The notes beneath the pieces were generated by a model. That model worked only from the letters and a program-made list of their open reading frames with translations, was not told the origin of the DNA and searched no databases. Shown here piece by piece: positions 40,403 through 57,575 of a DNA stretch of 64,000 nt. How positions within the stretch are numbered: the stretch's first letter is position 1; each line of letters begins with the position of its first letter. A program made the translations under genes and the position numbers. The stretch is from Sinohyriopsis cumingii. Taxonomy: Eukaryota; Mollusca; Bivalvia; Unionida; Unionidae. The stretch spans positions 16,027,220 to 16,091,219 of the forward strand of contig CM068839.1 of the NCBI GenBank assembly GCA_028554795.2. Reading direction: 5' to 3'.

Positions 40403-40411
40403 AGTAGTAAA

Positions 40412-40625: not shown

Positions 40626-40734
40626 GGAATAGAGTTCGGGCTTTTGGGATTTTTTTTTTAAAATTTAAATTTAAATTTAAATTTAAATTTAAAAAAGGGG
40701 TAGGAAAGGCTATCTCTTTTCGAGAAATATGGCT

Positions 40735-40750
40735 GGCCCTGAAAAGGGCC
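40735..40750 (-). terminator. Histone-type 3' stem-loop 1 (in left terminal repeat)
   Basis: On the minus strand ACCCAAAGGCCCTTTTCAGG continues to GGCCAGCC: a 6-bp stem with loop TTTC and A-rich 5' flank, as in replication-dependent histone mRNAs. The downstream ATTTCTCGAAAAGAGATA (about 40,711-40,728) resembles the histone downstream element that pairs with U7 snRNA. It starts 26 bp after the stop codon of small gene 1. Confidence 0.85.
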
Positions 40751-40775
40751 TTTGGGTTTTCTTCTTCTTCTGCTT

Positions 40776-41165
40776 CTAATTTCTTCTTTTTCTCCACCAA
40801 GTTCTTATTTTATCTCCAACACTCTTTCTCTTCTTCTCTTTCTTTTTCTCCTGCTCTTCTTTCTTCTTCTTCTCTTCCTCCTCTTCTTTCTTCCTCTTCT
40901 CATTTTCTTCTTCTTTTTCAATCTTTTCGTTCCATTTGCTTATTCTTATTCTTTCCTCTTCATCCTCCTTCTCCTCCTTTATCTCTTTCATGACACCACT
41001 AATCTTGTCCTTTACCTTTTTTAAGTTATTAATTTCCATCTTTACACGATGGGGACTATAGGAATAATGGTCTTCAACCAGTCTTATTAACATCTGCTCC
41101 ATCATTCCTAAGTTGTCTAAAACGTCTTGTAATGTTTGTATTTTGTCCATTTGGTTAGAAGCCAT
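40776..41165 (-). CDS. Inner Polinton: small coiled-coil protein 1
   Basis: 129 residues. A helical N-terminal half (MASNQMDKIQTLQDVLDNLG) is followed by a long Glu/Lys-rich coiled coil (KEEEEEKKKKEEQEKKKEKK) and a basic end, WWRKRRN. I do not recognise the family. It is the first of three cassettes that share an upstream promoter block and a histone-type stem-loop just after the stop codon. Here the stem-loop (40,735-40,750) belongs to the terminal repeat. A TTTAAGTATA motif at about 41,215-41,226 may be its TATA box. An early or DNA-associated role is only a guess. Confidence 0.65.
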   Translation of the reverse strand: MASNQMDKIQTLQDVLDNLGMMEQMLIRLVEDHYSYSPHRVKMEINNLKKVKDKISGVMKEIKEEKEDEEERIRISKWNEKIEKEEENEKRKKEEEEEKKKKEEQEKKKEKKRKSVGDKIRTWWRKRRN

Positions 41166-41204
41166 CTTCTTTTTTATTCTTTGCAGAATGGTTTGAACGA
41201 CGAA

Positions 41205-41325
41205 TACTATGGGTTCGTATACTTAAAGCGCGTACGTGAAGGAAAACATCCCCCTAAAAGGTAAAATTGATCTTACCTAGATCATGACCAAACAACGCGC
41301 GAACGTGAAGGAAAACATCCCCCTA
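41205..41325 (-). promoter_or_regulatory. Promoter block of small gene 1
   Basis: Contains AAAGCGCGTACGTGAAGGAA with AACATCCCCC, a second slightly changed copy (GCGCGAACGTGAAGGAAAAC) 70 bp further, and TTGATCTTACCTAGATCATG between them. The same words precede small genes 2 and 3. A TATA-like TTTAAGTATA sits between the block and the start codon. Confidence 0.7.
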
Positions 41326-41384
41326 CTTTTTCATTTCATATAATAAAACCCAAACTATACTTTTTCATTTCATATAATAAAAAC

Positions 41385-41790
41385 CCAAACTATACTCTCC
41401 ACATACGCTAAGAAACAATAAACAAAATCCATAATCTACAATCCATACAATCTTACGTGAGCGCTTACAAAACCCAAAGTATACTCTTCACATACGCTAA
41501 GAACAATAAACAAATCCATAATCTACTATTCACATAATCGTACGTGAGCGGGTACAAACACAAACACAAACACACAAACACAAACACACAAACACATACG
41601 CTAAGAACAATAAACTAATCCATAATCTACTATCCACACAATCGTACGTGAGCGCTTACAGAACCCTAACTATACTCTTCACCTACGCTAAGAAACAATA
41701 AAGAAACCCATAATCTACTATTCCCACAAACATACCTGAGCTCTTACAAGCACCAACACACAAACACATACCCTCACACTATCTTAAAAA
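41385..41790. repeat. Imperfect tandem repeat, about 4 units of roughly 90-110 bp
   Basis: Units share CACATACGCTAAGAA.AATAAA, CCATAATCTACTAT and GTACGTGAGCGCTTACA. A (CACAAA)n-like run lies at about 41,550-41,595. It fills the space between small genes 1 and 2, and no gene is present. Related words occur again before small gene 3 (about 42,515-42,640). Confidence 0.8.
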
Positions 41791-41870
41791 AGAGTTAGTG
41801 TTTATAATCACACTACTCTACCTACACACATTGGCAAATCGATCGTTATTTCTTTTCTAGAGTATTGGGT

Positions 41871-41886
41871 AGCCCTGAAAAGGGCT
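41871..41886 (-). terminator. Histone-type 3' stem-loop 2
   Basis: On the minus strand AACAGCCCTTTTCAGGGCTA continues to CCCAA. The 6-bp stem and TTTC loop match the histone consensus, including the ACCCA flank. The purine-rich TCTAGAAAAGAAATAA lies about 10 bases downstream (about 41,845-41,860). It starts 35 bp after the stop codon of small gene 2. Confidence 0.9.
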
Positions 41887-41920
41887 GTTTTTTTTTGTTT
41901 GGAACTTCATGGACACCTGG

Positions 41921-42295
41921 TTAATGGTGGCACCTTCCAGGCCTGGCGCCGCATACACATCTTATCCCCCAATTACTTTTTACCTTTTGAGGGGAGAGAG
42001 CAGAGGCAGGATATGTCGCTTCAGAATCCCAATTTTCGCTCTCTGGGATTCTGAAATTTCTTCTTCTTCTCTCCTTTTCCTCCTCCTCCTCTTCTTTGCA
42101 TCTTCTCTCCTCCTCTTTGTATCTTCTTTCCTCTTCTTTACATCTTCTCTCCTCCTCTTCTTTGTTTCTTCTTTCCTCCTCCTCTCTTATCCTTCCCTCC
42201 TCCACAATGGCTTCCGCGGCCAGTTCATTTAATATGCGCCTGGCATATTCCAGATGTACATGAAGTTCCAACAGTTTCTCCAGTCTCGTGTTCAT
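41921..42295 (-). CDS. Inner Polinton: small coiled-coil protein 2
   Basis: 124 residues. The N-terminal helix (MNTRLEKLLELHVHLEYARR) is followed by repeated KEEERR.KEEE units forming a long charged coiled coil, then a small C-terminal part with two cysteines (IRCVCGARPG). The family is not recognised. A TATA box (CTATAAATTG, about 42,345-42,354) lies about 50 bp upstream of the start, and the shared promoter block lies before it. The layout (promoter, helix plus charged coil, histone-type end) matches its neighbours. Confidence 0.68.
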   Translation of the reverse strand: MNTRLEKLLELHVHLEYARRILNELAAEAIVEEGRIREEEERRNKEEEERRCKEEERRYKEEERRCKEEEEEEKERRRRNFRIPESENWDSEATYPASALSPQKVKSNWGIRCVCGARPGRCHH

Positions 42296-42344
42296 TTTTG
42301 GTGTTGATCAATCAACAAGGGAAGCTGGACTGCCGAACGAGTTT

Positions 42345-42455
42345 CAATTTATAGTGAAAGCGCGGACGTGAACGAAAACATCCCCTAAAAACATAAAATT
42401 GATCTTACCTACATCATGACCATAAAACAACGCGCGGACCTAAAAGAAACACTCA
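42345..42455 (-). promoter_or_regulatory. Promoter block of small gene 2
   Basis: AAAGCGCGGACGTGAACGAA with AACATCCCCT, then AATTGATCTTACCTACATCA, matches the block before small gene 1 over about 70 bases. The TATA box CTATAAATTG is at its gene-side edge. Confidence 0.8.
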
Positions 42456-42747
42456 CTCACTTTTTATGCTACCCATCACTATTTTAAAATTTTTTATAAA
42501 TCACTTCAATAGACTATCCACATACGCAAAGCAATCCAATCTAACCCCAAATTTACACCTCAAACACCAAAAAAAAAGACATCATTTTAATCTACTATCC
42601 ATACCAACTTACTTAACCACTTACAAACACAAACACACAAACACATACCCTCACATTTTTTTAAAAAAGAGTTAGTGTTTATTTTCACACTACTCTACCT
42701 ACACACATTGGCAAATCGATTGTTATTTCTTTTCTAGAGTATTGGGT

Positions 42748-42763
42748 AGCCCTGAAAAGGGCT
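42748..42763 (-). terminator. Histone-type 3' stem-loop 3
   Basis: Same sequence as stem-loop 2 (AGCCCTTTTCAGGGCT with ACCCAA flank and TCTAGAAAAGAAATAA downstream). The surrounding 150 bp (42,630-42,777) are nearly identical to 41,752-41,900, showing that the 3' end was copied with the cassette. It starts 30 bp after the stop codon of small gene 3. Confidence 0.9.
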
Positions 42764-42792
42764 GTTTTTTTTTGTTTGCTATGGCATTCTTT

Positions 42793-43173
42793 TTAGTTTC
42801 TAAGAATGTGATGTCCTCTGAGGATAGACTTTCTGGCGATAGGTCTGCTTCTTCGGAAAGAGAAGAAGAACTCTTTGGTGTCGATACGACAATCGACAAA
42901 GCCTCTGTCAGCTTCAGGTTGCTGCTGCTGCTCTTGTTGTTGTTGTTGCTGCTGTCTCTGAAGTCTGTACTTCTCTGTCCATTCTTCTTTTTCCCTGTTC
43001 ATTTCTTCTCTGAAGAGCTCTTCTATCAGGTCTTCAGTGATTTTTAACATTCTCACATTCTCTATTTCTTCTGGCTTCGGTATCAGACTGTGTCTGACCC
43101 TATGCAAATTCACGTAGGCTTCGTTGAGTTTAGCTAGTTTGGAGCACATCTTCTTAGGAGGATGAGTCGACAA
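42793..43173 (-). CDS. Inner Polinton: small coiled-coil/Gln-rich protein 3
   Basis: 126 residues. The N-terminal half is helical (KLAKLNEAYVNLHRVRHSLI; IEELFREEMNREKEEWTEKY), then a glutamine run and a basic C-terminus (RRSRPIARKSILRG). The family is not recognised. It has the same cassette plan as small genes 1 and 2, with a promoter block at about 43,209-43,249 and stem-loop 3 downstream. A TTTAAGAAC motif lies only about 30 bp upstream of the first ATG, so the second methionine (KKMCSK) could be the start. Confidence 0.65.
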   Translation of the reverse strand: MSTHPPKKMCSKLAKLNEAYVNLHRVRHSLIPKPEEIENVRMLKITEDLIEELFREEMNREKEEWTEKYRLQRQQQQQQQEQQQQPEADRGFVDCRIDTKEFFFSFRRSRPIARKSILRGHHILRN

Positions 43174-43208
43174 TGGATGGTTAGACTGGAAACTGCCCCG
43201 GTTCTTAA

Positions 43209-43249
43209 AGTCAAAGCGCGGACGTGAAGGAAAACATCCCCCACACGGT
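43209..43249 (-). promoter_or_regulatory. Promoter block of small gene 3
   Basis: TCAAAGCGCGGACGTGAAGG with AAAACATCCCCC repeats the core of the blocks before small genes 1 and 2, in the same orientation and next to the start codon. Confidence 0.75.
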
Positions 43250-43348
43250 TTTTGAGTCGCAACGTTCAGTGAGTGTCATGAGAGGGATAGTAAGAAATGA
43301 AAGAGCATCAATCCAACATTCTTATAGCTAAACAAAAGACAAAGGCAT

Positions 43349-43625
43349 TTTTTTCAAAACACAACATTTTTTATTCAAAAATCACTTAACACTAAACAAC
43401 AACTCTAACATTTTTAACAATAATCCAACAATATAACATCAAACAATTTTTTCAAAACACAACATTTTTTATTCAAAAATCACTTAACACTAAACAACAA
43501 CTCTAACATTTTTAACAATAATCCAACAATATAACATCAAACAATTTTTTCAAAACACAACATTTTTTATTCAAAAATCACTTAACACTAAACAACAACA
43601 ACTCTAACATTTTTTAACAACAATG
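43349..43625. repeat. 98-bp tandem repeat, 3 units, after the major capsid gene
   Basis: Three nearly identical units start near 43,349, 43,447 and 43,545. On the minus strand each carries AATAAA (within TTTTTGAATAAAAAATG), so the capsid mRNA has three candidate poly(A) signals. This is the opposite 3'-end style to the small genes. Confidence 0.92.
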
Positions 43626-43679
43626 CAACACTAAAAGTTTCTCCCCTAGGTAAAGAGGGATAACAGTCTTCCATGGTTT

Positions 43680-44993
43680 CTAGTAATTTAGGATGACTTC
43701 TCTCAAACTGTTGATTTCTATGGTATTATCGAATTCTGCATACAGAATGACGTTCACCGTTTCATCAGGGTCTCGGTCTTTAAACTGAATTTCCACACGA
43801 ATCTGGCCGGATTTTATAGGGTGGAAATGTCCCTCGTCGCTGCCTTGGTCTGGAGTGAAATCGAAAGCCCACAAAGCGTAGCCTCCTGCATAATCCTCGT
43901 ACGTAATACCGTGACTGGTATTGGTTCCTAACTGTCCGGTGGCTTCGTACAAGGACAAGTACGATCTCAAGTAATTCTTCTTTTTAAAGTCAGGTTCGAA
44001 AGGTCGGGTACACAAGGTCTTGCCATCGCGACTGACTTCGATTTTGGACACGCCAAAGTGTTGAAAGTAGAAAGGATTTTTTTCGGCAGCTCCGTTGAAG
44101 GCTGTATTCTCGACGATACCAACGATCAAACGTTTGGGTAACTGTCCTTGGAACAGATGATCTTCGATCATGGATCGCTGTCCCTTGGGAATGGGGAAGG
44201 TTTTCACTTCCACGCGTCGTATGGGATACTTGGCAGTCGTTCTGCTCAACGTCTGACTGATGTCGTTTCCCACTTTAGGTAACACTTCCACACGGCGTAC
44301 GTAGAGTCTGGCTTCGAGGATTTTGGTTTTGTAACCGTCACTATCAGCCATCAAATGGAAAGCGGCACTGCTACGATTCAGTCTCAGGCGGACATCCATC
44401 CCGTTCAGCAAATACTTTTCTTGCAACCACATGTCCAAATGCAAACGATCCATCAGTTCTAAACTTGTGTCGGCTCCCGTGATTCTCTTTCTTCGTTCTA
44501 CAAATCCATCATTGTTGTCTTTCTTTTCATCAGTTTCCAATATTTCAAACTTGGTAGGTTCGTCAGCTTCCCATACCACACAGGCATTGAGATGAGTGTT
44601 CTTGGCATCTATTCCGTACGTCAAGAGATTTTCCAGGTAGGCACGATAAGGGTAAGTATCCATGCTGCTACTGACCAGTTTGTTATTCAAATACAAGTCC
44701 AGTCCACTGAACAAGGAATGCATGAAATTGTTGACGGGAGCTACTGCTTCATCGTCTATAGCACCTCCAGTCTTATCTAGAATTTTGACTTTCAGGTACA
44801 AGTAACTGCTATTCAGATCGATGTAATCTTCGGGCTGTCCTTTGATTTCAAACTCGATGGGAGCGGAATCGGTCAGTGAGGAGACGGGGTGAAATTCCAC
44901 CCACTGGGATTCTTGCATGGTCATCATGGTGGGGGGCATGGCAAACAGATCCAGTTCCGTCTTGGAACAAGCGCAAGATTCTCGGTGCATCAT
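43680..44993 (-). CDS. Inner Polinton: major capsid protein (F54H12.2-like)
   Basis: 437 residues, uninterrupted. The start MMHRESCACSKTELDLFAMP and the phrases WVEFHPVSSLTDSAPIEFEI, AVAPVNNFMHSLFSGLDLYL and SSMDTYPYRAYLENLLTYG belong to the Polinton capsid family annotated in many invertebrates as F54H12.2-like. The family is a double jelly-roll capsid protein that builds the icosahedral shell. Length is normal for this branch. The pX-like gene follows upstream on the same strand, as usual. Its 3' end runs into a tandem repeat with poly(A) signals. Confidence 0.95.
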   Translation of the reverse strand: MMHRESCACSKTELDLFAMPPTMMTMQESQWVEFHPVSSLTDSAPIEFEIKGQPEDYIDLNSSYLYLKVKILDKTGGAIDDEAVAPVNNFMHSLFSGLDLYLNNKLVSSSMDTYPYRAYLENLLTYGIDAKNTHLNACVVWEADEPTKFEILETDEKKDNNDGFVERRKRITGADTSLELMDRLHLDMWLQEKYLLNGMDVRLRLNRSSAAFHLMADSDGYKTKILEARLYVRRVEVLPKVGNDISQTLSRTTAKYPIRRVEVKTFPIPKGQRSMIEDHLFQGQLPKRLIVGIVENTAFNGAAEKNPFYFQHFGVSKIEVSRDGKTLCTRPFEPDFKKKNYLRSYLSLYEATGQLGTNTSHGITYEDYAGGYALWAFDFTPDQGSDEGHFHPIKSGQIRVEIQFKDRDPDETVNVILYAEFDNTIEINSLREVILNY

Positions 44994-45009
44994 TTTTTTG
45001 TCTCTTTTC

Positions 45010-45426
45010 TCAATAATCGAAAACGTCTAAGTCTCGAACGGTTCTTCTTTTCTTGGCCTTTCTCGCTTGAAGTCTGGTGAAAGGGTGTTTTCTTCGTCGT
45101 CTCTTTCTGCCTTGTCCTTGCTGAATGCCTGACTCGGTAGCGTGCAGGGCATTTATAGGTGTTTCTCGTTGGCCTAAAATGTCTTTGCCCGTTTGCAGCA
45201 AGACATTTTTGCCAGCCCTCATGAAGGCTTCTTTAGGGTTTTGTTTGTCGATGATGACATTTTGGAAAAATTCTTTGCCTTGTGTCAGTGCCGCATCTTT
45301 CAAGGCGTGCAATCCGCGTGTCACCATCGGTTTCAACACCGTGGCCACCGAACGAAAGGCCGATTTTAACATATCTCCTAAGCCGTGTCCTCGCTGTCGA
45401 GCAACCCCTCGGTACACTGGATACAT
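45010..45426 (-). CDS. Inner Polinton: pX/pVI-like minor virion protein
   Basis: 138 residues. It starts MYPVYRGVARQRGHGLGDML, has an amphipathic and basic middle, and ends in a very basic segment with RKRRRRKHP and ARKAKKRRTVRDLDV. The GLGD..KS.FR motif is shared with the corresponding gene of the outer element. Such proteins sit inside the capsid, contact DNA and may help membrane passage, by comparison with adenovirus. Its end lies only 16 bp from the capsid gene start and its own start 3 bp from the penton gene end, so the three are tightly packed. Confidence 0.8.
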   Translation of the reverse strand: MYPVYRGVARQRGHGLGDMLKSAFRSVATVLKPMVTRGLHALKDAALTQGKEFFQNVIIDKQNPKEAFMRAGKNVLLQTGKDILGQRETPINALHATESGIQQGQGRKRRRRKHPFTRLQARKAKKRRTVRDLDVFDY

Positions 45427-45429
45427 GAC

Positions 45430-46353
45430 TTAAGAGTCGTGAGAGAACCGTTTTCGAAAATGGAGTTTCACCGTGACTTTTCCTTTGGTGAATGGAATAT
45501 TTTGTCCCAGATCTCCTTTTATAGCAATGTTGACCGTGTCCAAATACGACTTACTGACAGGCAAATAGTGAGGATGGACAAATTCGCGGTGGACGTGGTA
45601 AGTGTTTCCACCTTCCTCGTCAGTGTTCGTGGCAGAATCCACTTTGAAAGGAATGACACGCAGTAACGGTACGGAGGTGTGTCCCACCACGTTGTACTCC
45701 ACCACATCGGAATACACGAACATCAAATTCAGTCCTTGGTTCAGTTCTACCGGGGCACGAAATAACTTGCTAAAAGACTCGTTGTCGTAAACGATGGGTA
45801 ATTCGTTTTTCTTGATCATGGTCTTTCTCATGTCCATGTCTCCGCCCAACATGTCAAACAATTCAGGACAAAATAAAATGGACAGGATTTTACTCCGTTC
45901 AAATTTCATCAAGAAGCGACGAGCTGCTTTGTGGTACTCCATGGTGACATTTTTGTTGACATGCTCCAAAGCTTTCAGAAACACGACATTAAACCTGGAG
46001 GTTATGGTGCTGACCAAATGTTGACCACTAAAATAATAGCCTGGGGGAATGAACAAGTGATATGTGGTGTACTTTAGTGTACGGGTTTTCTTGTCATATT
46101 TGACATTGCTATCCATCCACTGTTGCATCTGCTCGTCATGAACTTCCACATCAAAAAAATTTTGATTGGGAAGGACATTGAGGACTTGGGTCGGGTGAAT
46201 CATTTCTACTAAAGCCACTTCCCAATGGGCTTCGTGATCTAACTGGATGGCTTGAGGTAATTTGGCCGTGTAACAGCACAACGTGTTCTTGGGAAACACC
46301 TCCATGGAACTGTCACTGGGTAAGGTTAAGTAAAATTGGTTTTGGTGACTCAT
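45430..46353 (-). CDS. Inner Polinton: penton (minor capsid) protein
   Basis: 307 residues, uninterrupted. The phrases FYLTLPSDSSMEVFPKNTLC and AHWEVALVEMIHPTQVLNVL at the start, FVYSDVVEYNVVGHTSVPLL in the middle and GKVTVKLHFRKR at the end are hallmarks of the Polinton penton protein, a single jelly roll placed at capsid vertices. Its start overlaps the end of the membrane protein gene by four bases (46,350-46,353). Confidence 0.93.
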   Translation of the reverse strand: MSHQNQFYLTLPSDSSMEVFPKNTLCCYTAKLPQAIQLDHEAHWEVALVEMIHPTQVLNVLPNQNFFDVEVHDEQMQQWMDSNVKYDKKTRTLKYTTYHLFIPPGYYFSGQHLVSTITSRFNVVFLKALEHVNKNVTMEYHKAARRFLMKFERSKILSILFCPELFDMLGGDMDMRKTMIKKNELPIVYDNESFSKLFRAPVELNQGLNLMFVYSDVVEYNVVGHTSVPLLRVIPFKVDSATNTDEEGGNTYHVHREFVHPHYLPVSKSYLDTVNIAIKGDLGQNIPFTKGKVTVKLHFRKRFSHDS

Positions 46354-46766
46354 AATTCCAGAGTTCTGTGGCTGTCCGAGGGGTTACTGGACGTCAGAGG
46401 CGTGTCTCCGTCTAAAATGGGGTTCTGGTTGTGATTGAAGTGGTGACTGGCACTGGCACTGGACACAAGGTTCCCGGGGTTCCCGTTCGAGGTGAATTTC
46501 AGGGAGGGATTAGGAAGCAGGTAACCGATGCAACTGCTTAATAAAATGGTCCACAATTGTTTGTCTCCTTGTTGCAAACTCAAATTGGCGATGGCTGCCC
46601 CGATGACACAATACACCACGAAGATTTGGCAGAAAAAGACGATTTGCGTTTTAGGCACACGTTCTCCACGCCACACCCACAAGGGTTGTTTTTGTAAATC
46701 TTGCACAGAAGAACTAGGTGAAGGAGGAGTGGTCGACGTAGCTGCGTCTGCTGTGTGAAAGGGCAT
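46350..46766 (-). CDS. Inner Polinton: conserved membrane protein
   Basis: 138 residues. It has a Ser/Pro-rich head, then a motif shared by many Polintons: KTQIVFFCQIFVVYCVIGAA (first membrane segment), LWTILLSSCIGYLLPNPSLK (second segment) and a polar tail. The role is unknown; a virion membrane or egress role is inference. It overlaps the end of the integrase frame by about 190 bases and the penton start by four. Confidence 0.8.
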   Translation of the reverse strand: MPFHTADAATSTTPPSPSSSVQDLQKQPLWVWRGERVPKTQIVFFCQIFVVYCVIGAAIANLSLQQGDKQLWTILLSSCIGYLLPNPSLKFTSNGNPGNLVSSASASHHFNHNQNPILDGDTPLTSSNPSDSHRTLEL

Positions 46767-47881
46767 GATGGTGACTTCTTTTTATAGTCGATGACTTGCG
46801 AAGCGTCGATCCAAGAATCAAAACTGGGTGGATATCCTTTCCAACGTACTTTGACTTCTTTGACACGTCGTTTGCCCACTTTACGGGTTCTGCGTTCGAG
46901 AATGCTTTCGATGTCGTACACGTCGTCTTCTTTTTTGGTGACACGTTGTAACTCGGGCAAATAAAACGTTCCTTTGAGCACTTCTCCGTTCATGTCTTCC
47001 AATTTATAGACGGCAGGATGACGGCCATGCACTCGTCCAGTGACGCGAAACAATTCGGTCGTCCAGTTAGGTAAGTAACCTTTGTCGAAAGAGCGTTTGG
47101 TTTTGCCAATGCGCACCCAATCTCCTACGGCCAACTCTCCACTTTTCTTGGGGACAGCCCTCGTCTGGGACGTACCAAACAGGTGCTCAAACACCAACAC
47201 TTCGTTGTCGGGAGTCACGTCTTGCGGGGCACGTCCGATGCTTCGATGGTAAGATTGGTTGTACGCTTGCACCAGGTGCGGTAAGATGTCGATGTACTTC
47301 AGAGTGTGGTGATGCGTAAAATATTTCCACATGCGTTCTTTCAAAGTGCGTTGAAAACGTTCCACGATGCTGGCTTTGGTTTCGGGATTCTCGGTGGTAA
47401 AAAAATGAATGTCACGTTTCTTTAATTCTTTTTGGAAAGCTTGGTTCAGAAATTCGGTGCCTTTGTCCGTTTGCCATCGAAGAGGGTGACGACCGCTTTG
47501 TTTCAACACCCGTTGCAGGGCTCGCACTAACTCGCTGCTCGATTTGGAAGTCAAGGGCACGACCCAGGCAAATTTGGAAAAGACGTCGATGACACAAAAC
47601 AAATATTTGTAGCCACGATTGTAGCTGGCCAAATGAGAGACATCGGCTAAATCGGCTTGCCATTGATGATCGATGCCTTCCACTCGGGTGCGACTTCTGG
47701 CAAACTTGCGTCGAATGGGTTTGTGTAAAGTGTAGGTAGCTTGTTCTTGTAACCATCGTTGCACTTGAGGTAAACGGAGACTTTTCAGTCGCGTTTTAGC
47801 AGCACGATACAATTTTTGAACTCCTGCGTAACCTGCAGGATGGGAGGGATCGTAGTAAATGCTGGCTAAGACTTTTTCCAT
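46580..47881 (-). CDS. Inner Polinton: integrase with chromodomain
   Basis: 433 residues. The zinc-binding/N-terminal part is followed by the RVE core with catalytic D77 (HQWQADLADVS), D139 (QTDKGTEF) and E174 (SIVERFQRT), near the DD35E spacing. An SH3-like region has LAVGDWVRIGKTK. A chromodomain at about residues 321-366 includes VYDIESILE, VRWKGYPPSFDSWIDAS and VIDY. It joins the element's ends to target DNA, and the chromodomain may guide it to modified histones. The open frame runs on about 67 codons beyond the chromodomain into the membrane protein gene; that tail may not be meaningful. Confidence 0.95.
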   Translation of the reverse strand: MEKVLASIYYDPSHPAGYAGVQKLYRAAKTRLKSLRLPQVQRWLQEQATYTLHKPIRRKFARSRTRVEGIDHQWQADLADVSHLASYNRGYKYLFCVIDVFSKFAWVVPLTSKSSSELVRALQRVLKQSGRHPLRWQTDKGTEFLNQAFQKELKKRDIHFFTTENPETKASIVERFQRTLKERMWKYFTHHHTLKYIDILPHLVQAYNQSYHRSIGRAPQDVTPDNEVLVFEHLFGTSQTRAVPKKSGELAVGDWVRIGKTKRSFDKGYLPNWTTELFRVTGRVHGRHPAVYKLEDMNGEVLKGTFYLPELQRVTKKEDDVYDIESILERRTRKVGKRRVKEVKVRWKGYPPSFDSWIDASQVIDYKKKSPSCPFTQQTQLRRPLLLHLVLLCKIYKNNPCGCGVENVCLKRKSSFSAKSSWCIVSSGQPSPI

Positions 47882-47902
47882 TTTTTTGTGTTGGTTGGTG
47901 TG

Positions 47903-48541
47903 TTAATAAGACACCCACTCTTGGAGGATGCTACTCTTTTTCTCTTGGGGTATTTTCTTGGATTGCAATGCTTTGCGTGTGCGGCCAGCAATAGGTGTCG
48001 AAGAGGAGAAGGATGTCTGAGCGGGGGATATCGGTTCTTGTTTCACTTCTGTCTTCACTTCTGTCTTCACTTTCTTTTTCTCTTGTGATGAAGAAGGGGT
48101 GGCCATCATCTTTTTAATCCATCCAATTCTGGAGGTAGGTGGTGTTGTTAACTTGCGTACTTTTTCTGGTGGAGTTTGAAACCCTTCCTCTTCTTCTCCT
48201 TTTTCTGTCTTGGTCACGGGTACTGGTGGTACTGATACTGGTACTGGTGATGGTGCTGGACTTTTCATCAAGGTCTTAAAATCTTTCAGAGTGGGTAGAG
48301 CTGTTTCGTCTAAAGCTTTCTGGTGAAAGAGTTGCAGTCGTTGCAAGAGTTGACCGTACTTTTGCGATTTTTCTGTTTCGGACAAATCTTGGCGATCCAT
48401 CAAGGACTGCAATTCGTGTTGTAACTGGGACATCTCGCTCAAATGGGGATTGGGAGGTAAATGCGGGGTGTGTTGTTCTTGCCACCGATGGTATTCCATC
48501 CATCGTTTGTAAGGCACTAAAGCTAGTTTTCGTCCTTCCAT
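47903..48541 (-). CDS. Inner Polinton: conserved protein with LVPYKRW start
   Basis: 212 residues. It starts MEGRKLALVPYKRWMEY and has a helical section with LQSLMDRQDLSETEKSQKYG, a motif seen in many Polinton proteins of unknown function, then a Pro/Ser-rich linker and a basic tail. A TATA-like GATAAAAAGG (about 48,586-48,594) overlaps the stop codon of the preceding gene and lies about 50 bp before this start. The role is unknown. Confidence 0.75.
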   Translation of the reverse strand: MEGRKLALVPYKRWMEYHRWQEQHTPHLPPNPHLSEMSQLQHELQSLMDRQDLSETEKSQKYGQLLQRLQLFHQKALDETALPTLKDFKTLMKSPAPSPVPVSVPPVPVTKTEKGEEEEGFQTPPEKVRKLTTPPTSRIGWIKKMMATPSSSQEKKKVKTEVKTEVKQEPISPAQTSFSSSTPIAGRTRKALQSKKIPQEKKSSILQEWVSY

Positions 48542-48589
48542 GAGGTTGTCAGGGGTCGATTCTGAGATCTTGGGACTTCCGAGGCCTTT

Positions 48590-48976: not shown

Positions 48977-49034
48977 CTTTGAGTCTTCAGGAGCACCAAA
49001 AAACACTGATACCCGACTTGGTCACAGGCCTTTT

Positions 49035-49955: not shown

Positions 49956-50008
49956 GTTCGCACTGTGTGAGACAGACGAAAAAGGGTCTGAGGTTTTTAT
50001 AGATTTTT

Positions 50009-50752
50009 TTATGGGGAGTGAAATGAAGTCGAGGACGGAGACGTATACAGGACAGGCCCTCCGTTTTGGCACCAGTGGTGAAACAAGTGGGTACGAAATC
50101 GCAAATCCTCGGGAGTCGTAGGTTTCAAATCGACGAGTAAATAGGCGTGTGGCGTTTGAGTGGCATCGTCGTACGCCTGAGTCAGCCAAGGCGTTCCTAA
50201 CTGTTTGGCTAAGACTTGCACTTGCGATTTATCTCGAGGGCTTTTAAACAAGACCACGTAATCCGCATTGAGACTGATGGTGCGATGGGCTTTACTTTGT
50301 TGAAACAAATTTTGGGTGATGTAAACGACACTGGCATTACGGTGATGCCCTTTGCGCGTGAACCACAGTTTAATTTCTTCTTCGTCTTCTCCTAACATGT
50401 CGTCGAAAATGACCAAATGGGTTAGACGGGAGTCAGAGACGATGCCGTCGTCTTCTTTAGGAATGCCTTCCACAAACACGATGGAATCGCCTTGACTTTC
50501 TCGCAAGAGGCTGTACGCCGATTGCCACTCTTTGTAACACCACACGATTCGTTGAGGGGGTCGATCGATCAAATGATGTTTATGTTCGATCAAACGTTTG
50601 ACGAATTCGGTTTTGCCTGAACCGCTAGGTCCAGCAATGAGCATGTTAAAGGGATGGCGAAGATACAAAGCCTCCCAACTGGCACGATCTAAGTGTTCGT
50701 CGATGACTTTGACAGTAGAGGAAGAGGGAGCAGAGACAGCAGAGGTAGCCAT
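50009..50752 (-). CDS. Inner Polinton: packaging ATPase (FtsK/HerA, A32-like)
   Basis: 247 residues from MATSAVSAPSSS, chosen because a TATA box (GTATATAAAC, 50,801-50,810) lies about 50 bp upstream; a longer frame opens at 50,791. Walker A is FNMLIAGPSGSGKTEFVKRL, Walker B is HLVIFDDMLGEDEEE, and HRNASVVYITQNLFQQSKAH is the typical sensor region. It pumps DNA into preformed capsids. The frame is uninterrupted. The outer element's own copy of this gene is where the inner element inserted. Confidence 0.95.
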   Translation of the reverse strand: MATSAVSAPSSSTVKVIDEHLDRASWEALYLRHPFNMLIAGPSGSGKTEFVKRLIEHKHHLIDRPPQRIVWCYKEWQSAYSLLRESQGDSIVFVEGIPKEDDGIVSDSRLTHLVIFDDMLGEDEEEIKLWFTRKGHHRNASVVYITQNLFQQSKAHRTISLNADYVVLFKSPRDKSQVQVLAKQLGTPWLTQAYDDATQTPHAYLLVDLKPTTPEDLRFRTHLFHHWCQNGGPVLYTSPSSTSFHSP

Positions 50753-50800
50753 GGTGTGAGAAATGTCACTTATGACACGAAAAACAAACAAGACAAGAGT

Positions 50801-50810
50801 TTATATACTT
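50801..50810 (-). promoter_or_regulatory. TATA box of the packaging ATPase
   Basis: GTATATAAAC on the minus strand, about 50 bp before the MATSAV start codon. Confidence 0.65.
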
Positions 50811-50822
50811 TTTCAGAAAACG

Positions 50823-50828
50823 TTTATT
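50823..50828 (-). terminator. Poly(A) signal after PolB and the 89-residue gene
   Basis: AATAAA on the minus strand (TCAATAAACG), downstream of the genes at 50,973-51,242 and 51,247 onward. These genes use an ordinary poly(A) signal rather than a histone-type end. Confidence 0.5.
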
Positions 50829-50972
50829 GAATGTTTCAAACATAAATACGAAAGACAAAAATGCATAAAAGCCAAAGGCTTAAGTACAAGAATAAAAGGC
50901 ACATGATAACCATGAACGTGGAATAAACACAAGTGTCTGTACAACATGTTTTGGGTAAAGTTCTAGCCAGTT

Positions 50973-51242
50973 CTATAGTAGGGGTAAGGTCACACAATTG
51001 TCCTCCCGAAAGGGTCTTTCAGGCCTGTCCACGACAGTCCTGTCCTGGGTGACGGGTTCTTCTGGCACCGTCACTAACACAGGTTGAAAAGTAACTTTTT
51101 TCCTTGAATAACTCTCGTGCATACTGGGCCACCTCTTGTGTCCAAGACTCAAAACCCTGGTCTCGGTGATGTCCAACATTTGACTCCTAACCAATCTGGT
51201 TTCTTCTTCGTCAACGACATGGTAAGTTACTTCAATGAACAA
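50973..51242 (-). CDS. Inner Polinton: small protein after PolB, unknown
   Basis: 89 residues, starting MFIEVTYHVVDEEETRLVRS. It begins four bases after the PolB stop codon, which suggests a shared mRNA. It is rich in Val, Arg and Glu, with no membrane segment or recognised motif. Confidence 0.5.
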   Translation of the reverse strand: MFIEVTYHVVDEEETRLVRSQMLDITETRVLSLGHKRWPSMHESYSRKKVTFQPVLVTVPEEPVTQDRTVVDRPERPFREDNCVTLPLL

Positions 51243-51246
51243 TGAA

Positions 51247-54200
51247 CTATCGATCTTGCCTAGGGTTCCTTTTCATATACAGACCAATACCGACGTGACC
51301 GTACGGTAAGGTGAAGTGATTGGGAAGTCGCACTCGCTTCTGGTATACAATTTGATAGACTTTTTCCAAGGGTCGACTGACGATGTGGTGAGTGGGTAAA
51401 CGTACAATATTGTTCGGTTGATAGGTGGTCACTTTAAAGTTTCCATCCTCTCCCGATTGCAAGGCTTCTTTCAATACCCCAAAGTTGACCACTCGACTGG
51501 TACGATGATTCAGAGTCAGTCCTTTCACTTTGCACGTCGTGTGCACTTCTCCTTGTTTGTCCCGGTATTCGTAGCCGTAATTTTTGGGGCCAGCACTGAC
51601 GAAACTTAGAATCTTGTCGTCGGGATGCTCGTCTGTCCAGGCTCCTAAACGGTCTCCTTCGATGTCAGGGTGCTGTTGAATCGGGTGATGGATGTAAATG
51701 CAACTGTCCGTGTCAAAGTACAGGACGCGTTCTTCTAACAGTTCTAAAGCTTCGTACAATTTTAAGCGAGCATGAGCTGTCACGTAAGCCGCAATGATGA
51801 CATTTCCAAAAGGGTCGTCTTGTACAAAGTCCAGATCTTCTTCGTAATTGACCAAGATCAAATTCTCTCGAACGACGTCCACGTGTTTCATGTATTTGGT
51901 TTTGTCGTGAATCATCTGGAAGTAGCGGGAAGGTTCTGTCAAATATTCCGTCTTGGGTAAACACGGTCGTTGTGCCATTTTACCCCACAAGCAATTTAAC
52001 ATCACTTTGGCAAACGATCGCCTGCCTTCGTTTTTCTCGATGTGGTCTAAAGAGATGCCTTCTTGTTCATAGTATTTCTCTTTGAATTGTATTTGGTCTT
52101 CGGGAGTGTGACACCAGGACGGATAGCCGCTGGCTTCTTGTTTCAGTTTCAAAAAGGCATCCACGTAGTCGGCGAAAATGCCTTTCTGAGTAGGGTCACC
52201 CTTGTGGTACTGTTGTGTCTTGGGAAAGTGGCAAATTTCGTACACTTCTAACAGTTGGTATCCCATGTCCAGAGCTTTGAACAATTCCACGCTGACCCAG
52301 GTTCCCGTCAAGGCACGTTCTTCCTGGCGGTGATGGCAAGGTTGGTCCTCGTTGCACGTTTCGGCACAAGTACGGCACAATGGAAACATCAGTTTGCCTT
52401 GACAATGGTGAGGTAAGACGGGATGGTATAGGTTCGTGGGAGGCAAAACTTTACACTTGATCAAGCCTTCGTATTGTCGAATGTTTTTCAGGTCAATGTG
52501 TTCCGTCAACAATTGCGGGTGCCCTACAGGAAAGCGACAATATTTGCACACGTAGGGATACAGCGAACACACGTCCAAGTATTTGATTTCTTCTCCTTTC
52601 TCTTCGTCGGCTTGGTACAGCAAACAGGTGGCATTGGTCCTTCCTCCGTACAAACTATCCCTCGGGTTCAGCGGGTCCATGAACTGGTAACTTTCCACGA
52701 GGCGTTTAAACTCGGGATCGGTTTTCATACGGTGATCGTACTCGTGTTCCCACATTTCCACCACTTGGTATCCTTGCTGTTCTAACTTTAGGCGTCGCTG
52801 ACAAGTGTCCTGGTACAAGTCTTCCATGGTTCGTTGCAAAAACTGATTTTTAGTGTAACGGTCAGGGTAACAGACGGGACATCCGTGAAATAAGCAACCG
52901 TTAAACTCGTACACGATCTTGGGGTTTTCTAAGTCCCAGCCATCTACCGAATACGTTCCGATGGTCTTTTCGCCTCCTCCGTTGCGGGCATGCTGAATCC
53001 ATTTGTCTTCCTTGTCGCACAAGTAATGTAACCAACGTAGGGCTTTGACCGAGTATTGACGCTTGACATAGTGGGTCGTTTGAGGACTGATGACAGCTAC
53101 GGTGTTTTCAGGCATGAATCGTTGGCGGTACACTAAGGAACACGCTTTGGCAATGGTGCAAGCTTCTTTCAAAGGATCGACCCCTCCGTGTTCCATGAAC
53201 AGTTCTCGAAATTTTCCACAGCAACGTCGTAAAATGTCCACGTCGGAACGACAATACTTTAGCATTTCTTCCTGAAAGTCGAAAGGGTCGGAGGCATGAG
53301 CCTGGTACCAAGCGTAGAAAGCTTCTCGTTGTTCGGTACGCATGTTGTCGGGGTCGTAATAGTGAGCCTCAGGCAAATGGGGTAGAACGGCATGTTGATT
53401 GGCTTCCGTATTGAAAAAGTTTGGAAAGTACCCTTTAGCCATTTCTGTCATTCCAAACGTTTTAGGCATTCGACTCAAAGGCATGGCCAAGTAACTCATC
53501 GAATCTTTAAACTGTACTTGTCCCACTTGCATGAAAATGATTTTGGCTCCGTTCAAAGTGACTTTAGGACGCTCGGTGCCTTGTTCCGCATAGTACCTCA
53601 AAAGAAACTGTCCATCGTATCCGGAGAAATTGTGAGCCATCACCGTGGCATGACGATGACAATCTCCGTAACGTTCGATGTCCTCTTGGCTCCACGTCTT
53701 GTCGATGGGGTCTAAGACCCATTGGGCAAAATCGGCTAACGTGTTTGGTCCCCGAAAGATTTTTTCACGCCCTCCGGGAATCTTGCTGCAGTGAGGGCAA
53801 TGACTGAAGATAGGTTCTTGAATGCACTTCTCGCACGCTCGATGAGCCACGCAGAAATTAGGAATGTGAATGCCGGTCTCTTGCATACATTCGAAATCGA
53901 AAAAGATGAAATTGCCTTTCTTCTTGTGACCGTCCTCTTTCTCTGGTGGGGGTTGGTATTTTTGCACGTAGCATTGGTGTTCCAAGTCCACGATGCGGTG
54001 ACAAATGTGACATTTTTTTTTTCCTGAACATACGTGTGCCTTGGTACTATTGGTACGTATGCCTTGTCTACACGTAGGGCACAATCTCAAGAGTTGACAA
54101 GCACATTTCTGCTGTGAACCTTGCGTCTTCAGATGTTGTTGGTAACAGGTAGGACTGACAAACGTGCGCAAACAAGTCGAAAGGCCAAACATCCTGGGCA

Positions 54201-55280
54201 TTTCATTCCACAATGCTTGTGTTGCTCTCGATTGTTATAACCACGGTCACATTTCTCACAATAATAACTGTATCCCAGGAATCCAGTGATACTGGTAATG
54301 GTATCGAAATGGTCATCGTGATGATAGACATGAATGTATTTTCCGTCCTTAAAATCTTGGCCTCGAAACAACAGAGTTCCACGCATTTCTTGAGGGTGCA
54401 CTTTCAAAGTGTAGCGTGGAGCTAGGGCATCTTGCAATTTTTGCATCTCAGGAATGCCACAGGGTGTGTCTTTGGACAGTCCGACTTGTTGTAACAGGAG
54501 TTCTGCTTCGTTTCGTTGTTTGGCTCGATCGCATCGTTGAATAGTTTTCCAGGTTCTTTTCCATTCTACCGTGTCGTTCTTGTTGGCATAGGTTCGTCCC
54601 ACCACGATGGCACGGGCTAAACACATCTGGTCTTGAGGGTTGTTAATTCGGACGAGACTCTTTTTGGTGTTGCGAAGGTCGTCCACCAATAACATCTTTT
54701 TGCATCCAGTTCCTTGAGGAGGAGAGACGTGGGCCATTTTCAGTGTGGCTTTACCATCGGTGATGTCAAACTGGTTATTAGATTGTTGCACCTGTTGTAT
54801 CTTGTCCATGACTTTGGAAGGGGTCAGTTCTGCGGGTCTGCTAAACTCGATCCAAACAGGGGATTTCAAACCGTCGTGATCTATGGATAGTGTCAAGCGA
54901 TCGTCTTCTTTGGCTTGACATTGTCGCTTGAGTGCGGTGAGCAAAGAATCCCACATCTCGGTGATAAACCCTTCTGCTTTCTCCAAGGGTACGTCGGCCT
55001 TGAAATCTTTAAACTTCACCGTGTAGGTGTAAGCCGTGGTTCTAAATTTTCTAGAGGAGCGCTTTTCCGTCTATCGAATGGAATAGTACTTTTCAGGGTT
55101 GACTAAGGGTGGTGAACTTGGTTTAGAGGGTTCGGATTCTGGTTCACTCATGTCCTCTTCAAAATCACTGGCATGAATTTGTGCCAAGATTTCAGCCCTG
55201 GTACGAGGCGATAGATCACGTTTCTGCCTCTTACTTTCTTCTTCTTCTTCTTTCTTCTCGAATGAATGGGATCGTTTCAT
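51247..55280 (-). CDS. Inner Polinton: protein-primed DNA polymerase B, about two breaks
   Basis: The gene reads toward lower coordinates. The N-terminal part starts MKRSHSFEKKEEEEESKRQK and is charged. The middle has the phrases CLARAIVVGRTYANK and FLGYSYYCEKCDRGYNNREQ, typical of Polinton PolB. The exonuclease begins at FIFFDFECMQETG with YDGQFLLRYY. Polymerase motif A is KYLDVCSLYPYV, motif B KVMLNCLWGKMAQ and motif C VLYFDTDSCIYI. The total length suits the family (roughly 1,100-1,350 residues). It copies the element from protein primers at the ends. The gene has about two breaks. A TATA box (GACTATAAATTAG, 55,325-55,337) lies about 50 bp upstream, in a promoter shared with the zinc-knuckle gene. 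Confidence 0.93.
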
Positions 55281-55415
55281 CTTGAGTGCAAAACGTCAAA
55301 TGACTCAAGTATAAACACCATAGACTAATTTATAGTCTTGGCAAACCAGCGTATATAAAAAGGGTGTGTGTCTTGTCCTTTCACTATTCATTTCACTCTC
55401 AAGCCGAGCACAACG
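55281..55415. promoter_or_regulatory. Divergent promoter of PolB (minus) and zinc-knuckle gene (plus)
   Basis: Minus strand: GACTATAAATTAG (55,325-55,337). Plus strand: GTATATAAAAAGGG (55,351-55,364). Each lies about 50 bp from its start codon. TGACTCAAG with TGACGTT on the PolB side resembles AP-1/CRE half sites. Confidence 0.7.
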
Positions 55416-55886
55416 ATGGAAGAGACTACCCAGATGGAACGTTTCGTCAGAGCTTTGCGAGGGGTCATTAGAAAATTCTCTTCAGACCAGCCGACGGACT
55501 ACTCTCCTTCCTTTCGAGATAAAAGTGAAGATACTTGCTATATCTGTCAGAAGAAAGGGCATTGGTCTTCAGAGTGTCCAGACCGTCAAAAAAAAAAAAA
55601 AACAGGGGCTAAAAAAGACAAAAGTCAAGATACCTGTTATTATTGTAAAGAAAAAGGACATTGGTCTCCAGATTGCCCAAAAAAGAAACAAGAGGAGTCA
55701 GAAGAAAAGAAGGATTCTTCAGAAGAAGAGAGGGATTCTTCGAAAGAAGAGAGGGATTCTTCAGAGGAAGAAGAGGAAGAAAGAAGACAATTCTATTTAA
55801 AAGAGGCAAAGAAACAGGAGAAGAAAAGAAGAAGGGAAGAAAATGAGGAAAAAACGGTGAAGAAATTGAAGAAACAGAGAGACTAA
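55416..55886 (+). CDS. Inner Polinton: protein with two CCHC zinc knuckles
   Basis: 156 residues from MEETTQMERFVRALRG, chosen because a TATA box lies about 55 bp upstream; an ATG at 55,368 lies too close to it. Knuckles of the form C-X2-C-X4-H-X4-C stand at residues 41-54 (CYICQKKGHWSSEC) and 74-87 (CYYCKEKGHWSPDC). A long Lys/Glu/Ser tail with EERDSS repeats follows. Such knuckles bind single-stranded nucleic acid in retroviral nucleocapsid and cellular proteins. In a Polinton the gene could serve replication or genome handling, which is inference. It is the only gene pointing right in the centre of the element and is divergent from PolB. Confidence 0.85.
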   Translation: MEETTQMERFVRALRGVIRKFSSDQPTDYSPSFRDKSEDTCYICQKKGHWSSECPDRQKKKKTGAKKDKSQDTCYYCKEKGHWSPDCPKKKQEESEEKKDSSEEERDSSKEERDSSEEEEEERRQFYLKEAKKQEKKRRREENEEKTVKKLKKQRD

Positions 55887-56105
55887 ATAAGGAGAAAGAA
55901 GAAGTGTAAGAACTTTTTAAAGTGTTCTGTGGTGAATTGTGAATTGGATTGTAAAAAATGGATAAAAGAATACATGAATGATATAAGGTAAGTGTCTTTG
56001 AGTTTTGATTTTAAAATAAGAAGCTACACTCAAGCACTCATACACAGACACGTACTATAAGGGTAAAATGGGTGGGGTTTATTTTTGAGTTATTGGCAAA
56101 TTGAA
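55887..56105. other. Gap between the zinc-knuckle gene and the last small genes
   Basis: Non-coding. The two convergent genes end here. No clear poly(A) signal for the plus-strand gene was fixed, and nothing else is recognised. Confidence 0.5.
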
Positions 56106-56133
56106 ATTGTATTTCTTTTCGAGAAATGTGGGT

Positions 56134-56149
56134 GGCCCTGAAAAGGGCC
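56134..56149 (-). terminator. Histone-type 3' stem-loop 4
   Basis: On the minus strand AAAGGCCCTTTTCAGGGCCA continues to CCCACA, an exact match to the histone consensus core and flanks. ATTTCTCGAAAAGAAATA follows at the usual distance (about 56,111-56,128). It lies just beyond the 3' end of small gene 4. Confidence 0.93.
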
Positions 56150-56164
56150 TTTTTTCTTTATGGT

Positions 56165-56737
56165 GTAGGAGTGAGTTTAACCAATCAACTTTAACTGCCT
56201 TAAGCCTTTGCCACGGCCAAGGCCTACCTTCTGATGATTGGGTTGAAATCACTAAGGGTGGTACGACAGGCTTAGTCACAGGGTTGGCGTGTTTAGCTCG
56301 GGAAGGTCGTATTCTCTTCGGTCGTGATAAAGAAGTCTGATACATTTGTTTCAGACTTCTTAACTCCGCTAAAATGTCCAACAGTACCGTAGCCGTTTGA
56401 TTTTCACCCTCTTGTTTCTTTGCTGCTACTTCTTCTTGCTGTTGTTGCTGTTGTTTTTTCTTACCTCTTATTGTTGCTGTTGCTGTTGCTGTAGGAGAAA
56501 AGCTTGTTCCGCTTCCTTTTGTCGTTGCATAAATTTCTCCAGTTCTTCTTTCTGTCTCTGTCTAAAATTCTCCACTTGCGGTAATGAAGAAGGTAACGAA
56601 GGTTCCGGAACAAATTCTTGCGAGGTAAGAAAATCCACAAAATCCCAATGTACCTCTTCTGAAAGTAAGTCCGGGTTCCCTTGGGCAGTCTCCCCTGCTG
56701 GTGCACCCCAATGGATCGTTTTCTGAGTTTCCGTCAT
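56165..56737 (-). CDS. Inner Polinton: small Gln-rich protein 4, about one break
   Basis: It starts MTETQKTIHWGAPAGETAQG, about 50 bp after a TATA-like CTATATAG (56,785-56,792). An acidic section (SEEVHWDFVDFLTSQEFVPE), a coiled coil (RQRQKEELEKFMQRQKEAEQ), a glutamine run and a basic C-terminal part (SRPKRIRPSRAKHANP) follow. The family is not recognised. The helical, Gln-rich and basic make-up is like small gene 3. The gene has about one break and ends before histone-type stem-loop 4. Confidence 0.6.
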
Positions 56738-56956
56738 GTTGAATCACTGTCGCATAGATTGACTGCACACAAGCGCTAACGAATCTATATAGACCACGTG
56801 ACGTCACAGACTGCTCTCTTCGGATTGGATGCGAGCTGACTGAATTTTGTAATGCGTGTTCGGATTGGTGAATGAATTCAATCCGTTTCAATCCTTCCTG
56901 TACCTATAAATAAGCGCAGTTCACTGCATTAATTCACTTGTTCTCGTCGCTTCAAG
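56738..56956. promoter_or_regulatory. Divergent promoter of small genes 4 and 5
   Basis: It contains two TATA boxes facing outward (CTATATAG at 56,785-56,792 on minus; CTATAAATAAG at 56,904-56,914 on plus). An E-box (CACGTG, 56,795-56,800) overlaps a full CRE (TGACGTCA, 56,799-56,806). Two CGGATTGG repeats (56,821 and 56,861), each a CCAAT box on the minus strand, complete it. The arrangement resembles divergent histone gene promoters. Confidence 0.75.
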
Positions 56957-57190
56957 ATGTGGACCGATGTGCAATCTTCTACGCTTGTGTCTTCCATGAT
57001 GTTTAGGACGGACATGCTCATGTATGTCCGATCCAAGTGGACCATTGTCCACAGGACAAACACCAGCCTGTGGATACGTAGGATCTACGTTGAAAGACAA
57101 GGATGCCTGAAAAGAGTGCTGATTTACGGACCAACAGTGAGACGTAGCCTAAGGACAAGAAGAAGACCAATGCGGTACCATTTATGTTAA
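56957..57190 (+). CDS. Inner Polinton: small basic protein 5
   Basis: 77 residues, starting MWTDVQSSTLVSSMMFRTDM about 45 bp after a clear TATA box. It is rich in Arg, Thr and Val (RSKWTIVHRTNTSLWIRRIY) and ends RTRRRPMRYHLC. The family is not recognised. The stop codon is 25 bp before histone-type stem-loop 5, which belongs to the right terminal repeat. With small gene 4 it forms a divergent pair in which both members end in histone-type stem-loops. Confidence 0.65.
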   Translation: MWTDVQSSTLVSSMMFRTDMLMYVRSKWTIVHRTNTSLWIRRIYVERQGCLKRVLIYGPTVRRSLRTRRRPMRYHLC

Positions 57191-57205
57191 TGAATACATT
57201 AACAT

Positions 57206-57569
57206 AAACCCAAAGGCCCTTTTCAGGGCCAGCCATATTTCTCGAAAAGAGATAGCCTTTCCATTGCCTACCCCTTTTTTAAATTTAAATTTAAATTTAA
57301 ATTTAAATTTAAAAAAAAAAAATCCCAAAAGCCCGAACTCTATTCCCCATGTTAATTTGCCCTTGTCGCTAGACAGACCCACACTATAGTTCCATGTTAA
57401 ATTCCCCTTGTCGCTAGAGTGACCCACGATTTATTCACATGTTAATTTCCCTTGTCGCTAATCTGACCCACGATTTTTCGCCATGTTAAATTTCCATTGT
57501 CGCTAATCTGACCCAGGGGTCTCTGTAATGCTAATTCCCATTGTCGCTAATCTCACCCCATTTACTACT
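57206..57569 (-). repeat. Inner Polinton, right terminal inverted repeat
   Basis: Reverse complement of 40,403-40,759 except for about one substitution, a different length of the TTTAAA tract and a 6-bp difference next to GGGGTAGG. Its inner edge carries the histone-type stem-loop of the last plus-strand gene. Confidence 0.96.
57215..57230 (+). terminator. Histone-type 3' stem-loop 5 (in right terminal repeat)
   Basis: On the plus strand ACCCAAAGGCCCTTTTCAGG continues to GGCCAGCC, followed by ATTTCTCGAAAAGAGATA (57,237-57,254). It is the mirror copy of stem-loop 1 and serves the plus-strand small gene 5. Confidence 0.88.
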
Positions 57570-57575
57570 GATGTG
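57570..57575 (+). repeat. Target duplication, right (GATGTG)
   Basis: Exact copy of 40,397-40,402, directly after the inner element's right end. Confidence 0.95.

Follow-up and report, generated by a model that had tools for sequence, protein, structure and literature searches.

Among animal mRNAs, those of the replication-dependent histones are the classic exception, ending without a poly(A) tail. Their 3' ends combine a stem of six base pairs and a four-base loop with an A-rich 5' flank, an ACC- or AGCC-type 3' flank and a purine element at fixed spacing, and cleavage of the pre-mRNA falls a few bases past the stem. To our knowledge, few users of this 3'-end route are known besides the histone genes themselves. 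In bivalves, histone mRNAs bearing the hairpin are documented for Lucina pectinata (PMC6210712), while the human histone gene H2AC18 carries overlapping histone and poly(A) signals and takes the histone route when the U7 small nuclear ribonucleoprotein (snRNP) is active (PMC9756948). The Polintons and adintoviruses of animals are a separate group of described systems, with a type B DNA polymerase (PolB), a chromodomain integrase, an A32-type packaging ATPase, terminal inverted repeats (TIRs) and a 6-bp target-site duplication. Here, we describe a Polinton/Maverick element of the freshwater mussel Sinohyriopsis cumingii that shares all of these features. It lies in a 64,000-nucleotide stretch of assembly GCA_028554795.2 (contig CM068839.1, positions 16,027,220 to 16,091,219; hereafter the window), where it spans positions 40403-57569 (17,167 bp), as delimited by the TIR match and the flanks, between two copies of the target-site duplication GATGTG (40397-40402 and 57570-57575). 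Unlike the described elements, it has histone-type 3' ends on small genes towards its two ends, and like the animal histone signals these have the six-base-pair stem, four-base loop, A-rich 5' flank, ACC-/AGCC-type 3' flank and purine element at fixed spacing. In the accessible text of the open-licence literature we found no description of histone-type 3' ends in Polintons or viruses, in keeping with the initial annotation of this DNA, which knew of none in Polintons. That statement needs one qualification, as a 2025 paper (PMC12220804) counts six matches to the histone 3' untranslated region (UTR) stem-loop in a collection of Polinton-like viruses (PLVs) and virophages; in the section concerned the matches are left undiscussed, as a bare count without gene, position, downstream element or function, and none falls in the cryptophyte PLVs.

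An exact scan of the window recovered the five hairpins of the initial annotation, with the positions and strands it had assigned: A-left (40735-40750), B (41871-41886), C (42748-42763) and D (56134-56149) on the minus strand and A-right (57215-57230) on the plus strand. A-left, D and A-right read GGCCCTTTTCAGGGCC, B and C read AGCCCTTTTCAGGGCT, and the strict 16-nt pattern occurs nowhere else in the window. A purine-rich element had been reported some 10-20 bases downstream, and GAAAAGA is indeed present at all five sites, always 13 nt past the stem, within a histone-downstream-element-like GAAAAGAGA at A-left (40713-40721, minus strand) and A-right (57244-57252, plus strand) and within GAAAAGAAA at B (41849-41857), C (42726-42734) and D (56112-56120), all three on the minus strand. 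When scored with the Rfam Histone3 model (RF00032, gathering cut-off 34 bits), A-left (match 40755-40710) and A-right (57210-57255) reach 35.6 bits each and D (56154-56110) reaches 41.2 bits, whereas B and C, found at E ≤ 1, score 31.0 bits each (E 1.9e-5); the assignment to the histone stem-loop family holds above the cut-off at three of the five sites and falls short of it at two. Nor are the five sites independent. A-left and A-right, each standing with its downstream element at the inner end of a TIR (left, 40403-40759, plus strand; right, 57206-57569, minus strand; 97.5% identical over 364 columns with 57206-57569 inverted), are copies of a single sequence, and B and C lie inside a 91% identical duplicate (41711-41901 against 42588-42778, 191 columns), so that all the sites counted initially are present but they represent three lineages. 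With a relaxed pattern (stem of six pairs, TNTN loop, AAAGA within a purine run) the element again gave five sites and the remaining 46.8 kb of the window gave none. Across 19,245 first-order Markov shuffles the combination of hairpin and purine element occurred 0.0069 times per element on average, with a maximum of one (the hairpin by itself, 0.25 per shuffle), against the five seen, which rules out chance hairpins.

The likeness extends to the histone genes of the host, with which the initial annotation had suggested a comparison. A search of the host genome (2.9 Gb, 1138 contigs) for histone H4 gave 114 matches, 109 of them full-length at 100% identity, mostly in tandem arrays whose units repeat at about 8.3 kb. 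The comparison was made with one array repeat (L094), which holds H4, H2B, H2A, H1 and H3, all on one strand. Each of the five genes is followed by a Histone3 match of 35.0-39.4 bits, with the hairpin starting 27-38 nt past the stop; sites A and D score within or above this range, B and C below it. The host hairpins read GGCCCTTTTTAGGGCC (H4 and H3), GGCCCTTTTCAGGGCC (H2B), GGCCCTTTTAAGGGCC (H2A) and GGTCCTTTTCAGGACC (H1), the 16-nt H2B hairpin being letter-identical to sites A and D. The agreement continues downstream, where H4, H2B, H3 and H1 share CTAGAAAAGA, identical to the element at sites B and C, while H2A has CCCGAAAAGG in its place. A joint alignment was made of twelve sites: the five of the host, the five of the window, one from a distant Polinton (L001) and one from an older family, the last two described below. 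All 72 stem cells in it are paired, and in two of the six pairs both partners change, from G-C to A-U in three Polinton sites and from C-G to U-A in H1; the covariation score was reached by none of 500 shuffles and the number of two-sided pairs by 30 of 500.

Each hairpin stands behind a small gene, on the coding strand. On the left, all on the minus strand, cc1 (40776-41165; 129 aa, E/K-rich and coiled-coil-like by eye) has its stop 25 nt ahead of A-left, cc2 (41921-42295; 124 aa, E/R-rich) 34 nt ahead of B and cc3 (42793-43149; 118 aa) 29 nt ahead of C; on the right, a gene for a 77-aa basic protein (56957-57190, plus strand) ends 24 nt ahead of A-right. The fifth, gene D (56177-56737, minus strand), has a broken frame in the window, leaving an 89-aa open reading frame (ORF; 56468-56737), and its lower end was placed using the 27-nt distance seen in other copies. 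The 25-35 bp first reported for four genes is therefore 24-34 nt by our measurement, with the fifth gene at 318 nt. We surveyed the distance in the window and ten copies drawn from the 45 others listed in a PolB search of the host genome (11 in all). The hairpin starts 24 nt past the stop of the 77-aa gene in all 11 copies, 27-33 nt past that of cc3 in all 11, 22-25 nt past that of cc1 in 10 (the remaining copy has an early stop) and 33-35 nt past that of cc2 in nine, the start not being found by the probe in the other two. Gene D is a single 186-aa ORF in eight of the ten other copies, with its stop 27 nt ahead of the hairpin in these eight of the 11; the distance is 318 nt in the window and 311 nt in copy L053, and the start was not found in copy L043. 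In copies with intact frames, then, all five genes have a coding-strand hairpin 22-35 nt past the stop. This bears on the idea that the hairpins act as DNA, marking the element ends for replication, packaging or recombination, a role to which the two hairpins at the inner ends of the TIRs would lend themselves. The remaining three lie internally. All five point the same way as the preceding gene and keep this distance from its stop where the frame is intact; a DNA signal would not need GAAAAGA at a 13-nt spacer, and it is the histone genes of the host that the sites match. We find a role as DNA scarcely credible.

The end genes themselves are not histones, and here they part from the animal histone genes, as neither cc1, cc2, cc3, the 89-aa part of gene D nor the 77-aa protein has a Pfam match above cut-off. 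The 77-aa protein has relatives at 74-75% identity (P0121 and P0122). One of these, P0122, for which only the protein is available, extends beyond the homology into KPFSGPLTLLEN, as expected if a hairpin followed by GAAAA were translated, and site D read in the corresponding frame gives RPFSGPPTFLEKK; we note this without counting it as support. Upstream of cc1 and cc2 there is a shared block, GCGCGNACGTGAANGAAAACATCCCC (41218-41253 and 42350-42387), with a match in the older family, which is a possible promoter element.

The signal is retained beyond the window copy, in the other copies of the element, in a second family and in a distant Polinton. Among the ten other copies 48 of 50 hairpins are intact, the two changed ones being the TIR sites of one copy. 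Relative to the window copy, changes fall at 7 of 1400 compared bases in hairpin and downstream element, against 265 of 14,550 in the flanks (Fisher p 5e-5, which is only indicative because the copies share descent). An older Polinton family, found beside one of the copies (L052:54-494), has DNA 75-79% identical over the cc2 3' region. The best 40 of 4218 candidates were scored and 20 were fetched, which with the first one made 21 sequences for comparison; the exact hairpin is present in 19 of them and a hairpin with a single change in two, GAAAAGA is present in all 21, and hairpin and element lie above the mean conservation of their surroundings.

The distant case, L001 (CALIZB010000033.1), is a Polinton contig binned in a bacterial metagenome-assembled genome (MAG), with PolB 37%, capsid-like protein 32% and integrase 35% identical to those of the window. 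Its last gene before the contig end is a small C2H2 zinc-finger gene, followed 28 nt past the stop by GGCCCTTATCAGGGCCACCCC, a hairpin with loop TATC and an ACC flank, and then by AAAAAAGAGA (Rfam, 35.8 bits). Upstream of this gene, in the interval that separates it from the preceding one, there are three copies of TGACGTCA and one ATTGG. The corresponding stretch of the window is the region that separates gene D from the divergently oriented 77-aa gene (56738-56956), which has one TGACGTCA (56799), two ATTGG (the reverse of CCAAT) and a TATA-type match (56905), and which would be the promoter region of both genes. In Pfam the end genes of the window bear no resemblance to the zinc-finger gene of L001; with a like upstream region and a histone-type end, the two elements therefore have a similar arrangement around dissimilar end genes. 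The other distant locus, L002 (3.6 kb, no Rfam match), covers only the polymerase, so that the record for distant Polintons is one positive of one informative locus. Protein scans of IMG/VR found no Polinton relative, and four stretches there with the exact stem, loop and ACC gave no Rfam match at E ≤ 0.1 and were taken as chance.

These data also speak to a reading in which the sites are relics, a fragment of a histone 3' UTR from the host having been taken up once and spread by duplication and TIR exchange, with no use made of it. The sites are related to one another, as the TIR pair and the B/C duplicate make plain, and past the downstream element B, C and D (ATTTGCCAA) resemble the host H2A gene (ATTTTGCCA), a likeness that could come from shared descent or from a shared signal. 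An unused relic, however, would not readily account for hairpins and elements that vary less than their flanks (in sequences that are not independent), for a distance from the stop held for five genes, or for the same signal behind an unlike zinc-finger gene in a Polinton as distant as L001. We consider relic capture very unlikely.

Other genes of the element show no such ends. The 260 nt past the stop are free of hairpins in twelve of its 17 listed ORFs, namely all those outside the end-gene set, with PolB, the integrase, the ATPase and the capsid-like gene among them, and no hairpin occurs at 30 polymerase loci taken with 1.5-kb flanks (178 kb). The initial annotation had ascribed poly(A) signals to the capsid and polymerase genes, and AATAAA does occur 108 and 206 nt past the stop of the capsid-like gene, and 419 nt past that of PolB (50828, minus strand). 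The signal is not confined to these genes, as same-strand AATAAA also occurs downstream of site C (42683) and site D (56083), so that polyadenylated forms of these messages are possible, perhaps as a back-up. This raises the question of mixed use, in which the histone signal is real and yet much of the RNA is polyadenylated at a downstream AATAAA, the histone route being taken when U7 snRNP is active, an interpretation that overlaps with the histone-type processing we favour. The host offers a parallel in H4, with AATAAA 64 and 119 nt past its stop, and human H2AC18 a precedent, resembling sites C and D in having a poly(A) signal close to its hairpin and downstream element; it differs in being a histone gene of the host whose signals overlap, the AATAAA of the Polinton lying further downstream (PMC9756948). 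For cc1, cc2 and the 77-aa gene, by contrast, there is no AATAAA or ATTAAA within 260 nt past the stop. On balance mixed use seems to us somewhat unlikely.

We therefore return to histone-type processing, the pathway proposed in the initial annotation and favoured by the Rfam matches, the spacing, the purine element, the near-identity with host sites and the retention across copies. It is highly probable, in our judgement, that the five small end genes carry genuine histone-type 3' signals and that their messages are processed through host SLBP and U7 and are tail-less; the element thus very probably uses the host pathway for this set of genes. In outline, host SLBP would bind the hairpin of the end-gene pre-mRNAs, host U7 snRNP would pair with the GAAAAGA element, and the histone cleavage complex would cut between the two, giving messages with a cap but no poly(A) tail, whose 3' end is the hairpin. 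The element would then have two classes of 3' end. The block from polymerase to capsid, with no histone signal and with AATAAA beyond, would make up one; the end genes would form the other, tied to S phase by its machinery, and at each extremity the TIR itself would supply the 3'-end signal to the outward-facing gene. Active U7 machinery is reported to be present only in S phase (PMC9756948). What the sequence shows is the signals, their position, their match to the histone signals of the host and their retention; processing, the lack of poly(A) and the S-phase timing are inferred from it.

Several results count against this interpretation. B and C stay under the Rfam cut-off, and AATAAA is found past C and D. 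The five bases ahead of the stem differ between copies at 13 of 250 positions, more than the flanks do, and in the older family the conservation of hairpin and element is equalled by 25 of 309 other windows, so that conservation alone is not decisive there. No U7 of the host was found in an Rfam U7 search in which the best 65 of 801,960 candidates were scored. A first U7 pattern gave 356 matches, of which the first 100 were listed, and 8 + 8 small stretches and 8 loci from this search, checked by eye or Rfam, showed no U7-like gene; a second pattern gave 34 matches, hardly more than the 27 in the control, with none U7-like among the eight inspected. As for S-phase promoter signals, the element contains no strict E2F site, and in the 300 bases ahead of four host histone genes we saw no copy of the cAMP response element (CRE) present in the putative D/77-aa promoter; H4 was left out, with only 30 upstream bases covered.

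The searches for U7 also turned up sequences of other kinds. Frequent matches of TCTTTTCCAAATTTGTCTGG are read as coding DNA of Polinton integrases, and a U7-pattern locus, L103 (C13:13576020-13576200), is read as a degenerate Polinton 3' site in reverse orientation. By eye the latter looks like a B-type 3' end of a further Polinton family in which CTAGAAAAGAG survives but the stem is disrupted. Among second-pattern matches noted on contigs C340 and C17, TCTTTTCTAGTGTTATTTGTCT comes back at five places on C340, about every 35 kb, and may belong to a very long tandem repeat.

Whether the arrangement belongs to animal Polintons as a group, with SLBP/U7-processed S-phase end genes and a signal kept in the TIR and inherited by whichever gene comes to lie at the end, is a broader proposition, which we hold tentatively and at slightly less than even chances. 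If it were true of Polintons generally, expression of the end genes would be coupled to host DNA replication; Polintons would also be the first known case of a virus-like lineage that uses the histone mRNA pathway. A selfish element with its own genes on this route would be evidence that the pathway is open to borrowing. It would also give a handle on the cell-cycle timing of Polinton expression, account for a possible absence of such transcripts from poly(A)-selected RNA data, and make the timing of Polinton replication with that of the host directly testable.

The identity of the element rests on its genes, of which those considered here are on the minus strand. The DNA polymerase B (51247-54201; 984-aa frame) matches PF03175, the viral and organellar type, with E 1e-40; the integrase (46580-47881) matches PF00665 and PF00385, the RVE core with a chromodomain; and the packaging ATPase (50009-50752) matches PF04665, of A32/FtsK type, with E 2e-7. 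With these three hallmarks together the element is a Polinton. A further gene (43680-44993; 437 aa) encodes what we take to be the capsid protein, a name given from its place within the element; it is 32% identical to a 428-aa protein of L001, and neither of the two, as candidates for a double-jelly-roll capsid, has a Pfam match. An adenain-type protease was not identified in the Pfam searches of the Polinton proteins. Past the capsid-like gene there are about three direct repeats of 98 bp (43346-43630), in which minus-strand AATAAA recurs at 98-base steps, and on the plus strand a 156-aa ORF with two CCHC zinc knuckles lies at 55416-55886.

The element looks young. In the host genome the best 46 of 44,800 first-look PolB candidates, a best-first list that makes the count a lower bound, are all 98-100% identical, and 42 of the 46 have no internal stop; in the window copy the polymerase gene is split over two frames, while in most of the listed copies a frame of about 1360 aa is open. 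One of the ten other copies has GTCATT on both sides, the end pattern being unmatched in the other nine. The nearest PolB relatives are a sequence on a 2.3-kb JGI contig, at 88%, and proteins in ENA at 49-54%; one match, at 52%, is assigned to a bacterial MAG, Candidatus Thiodiazotropha taylori. The nearest matches filed under an animal are oyster polymerases, mostly 46-48% identical, and among named relatives the polymerases of oysters, a sea cucumber and the adintovirus of the coral Rhodactis are about 43-49% identical to that of the window. The flanks (40270-40380 and from 57570 onwards) contain a P-loop-like ATPase motif (GPSGLGKT, by eye) and, on the opposite strand, a DUF5679 match, and the Polinton may thus sit inside an older mobile element.

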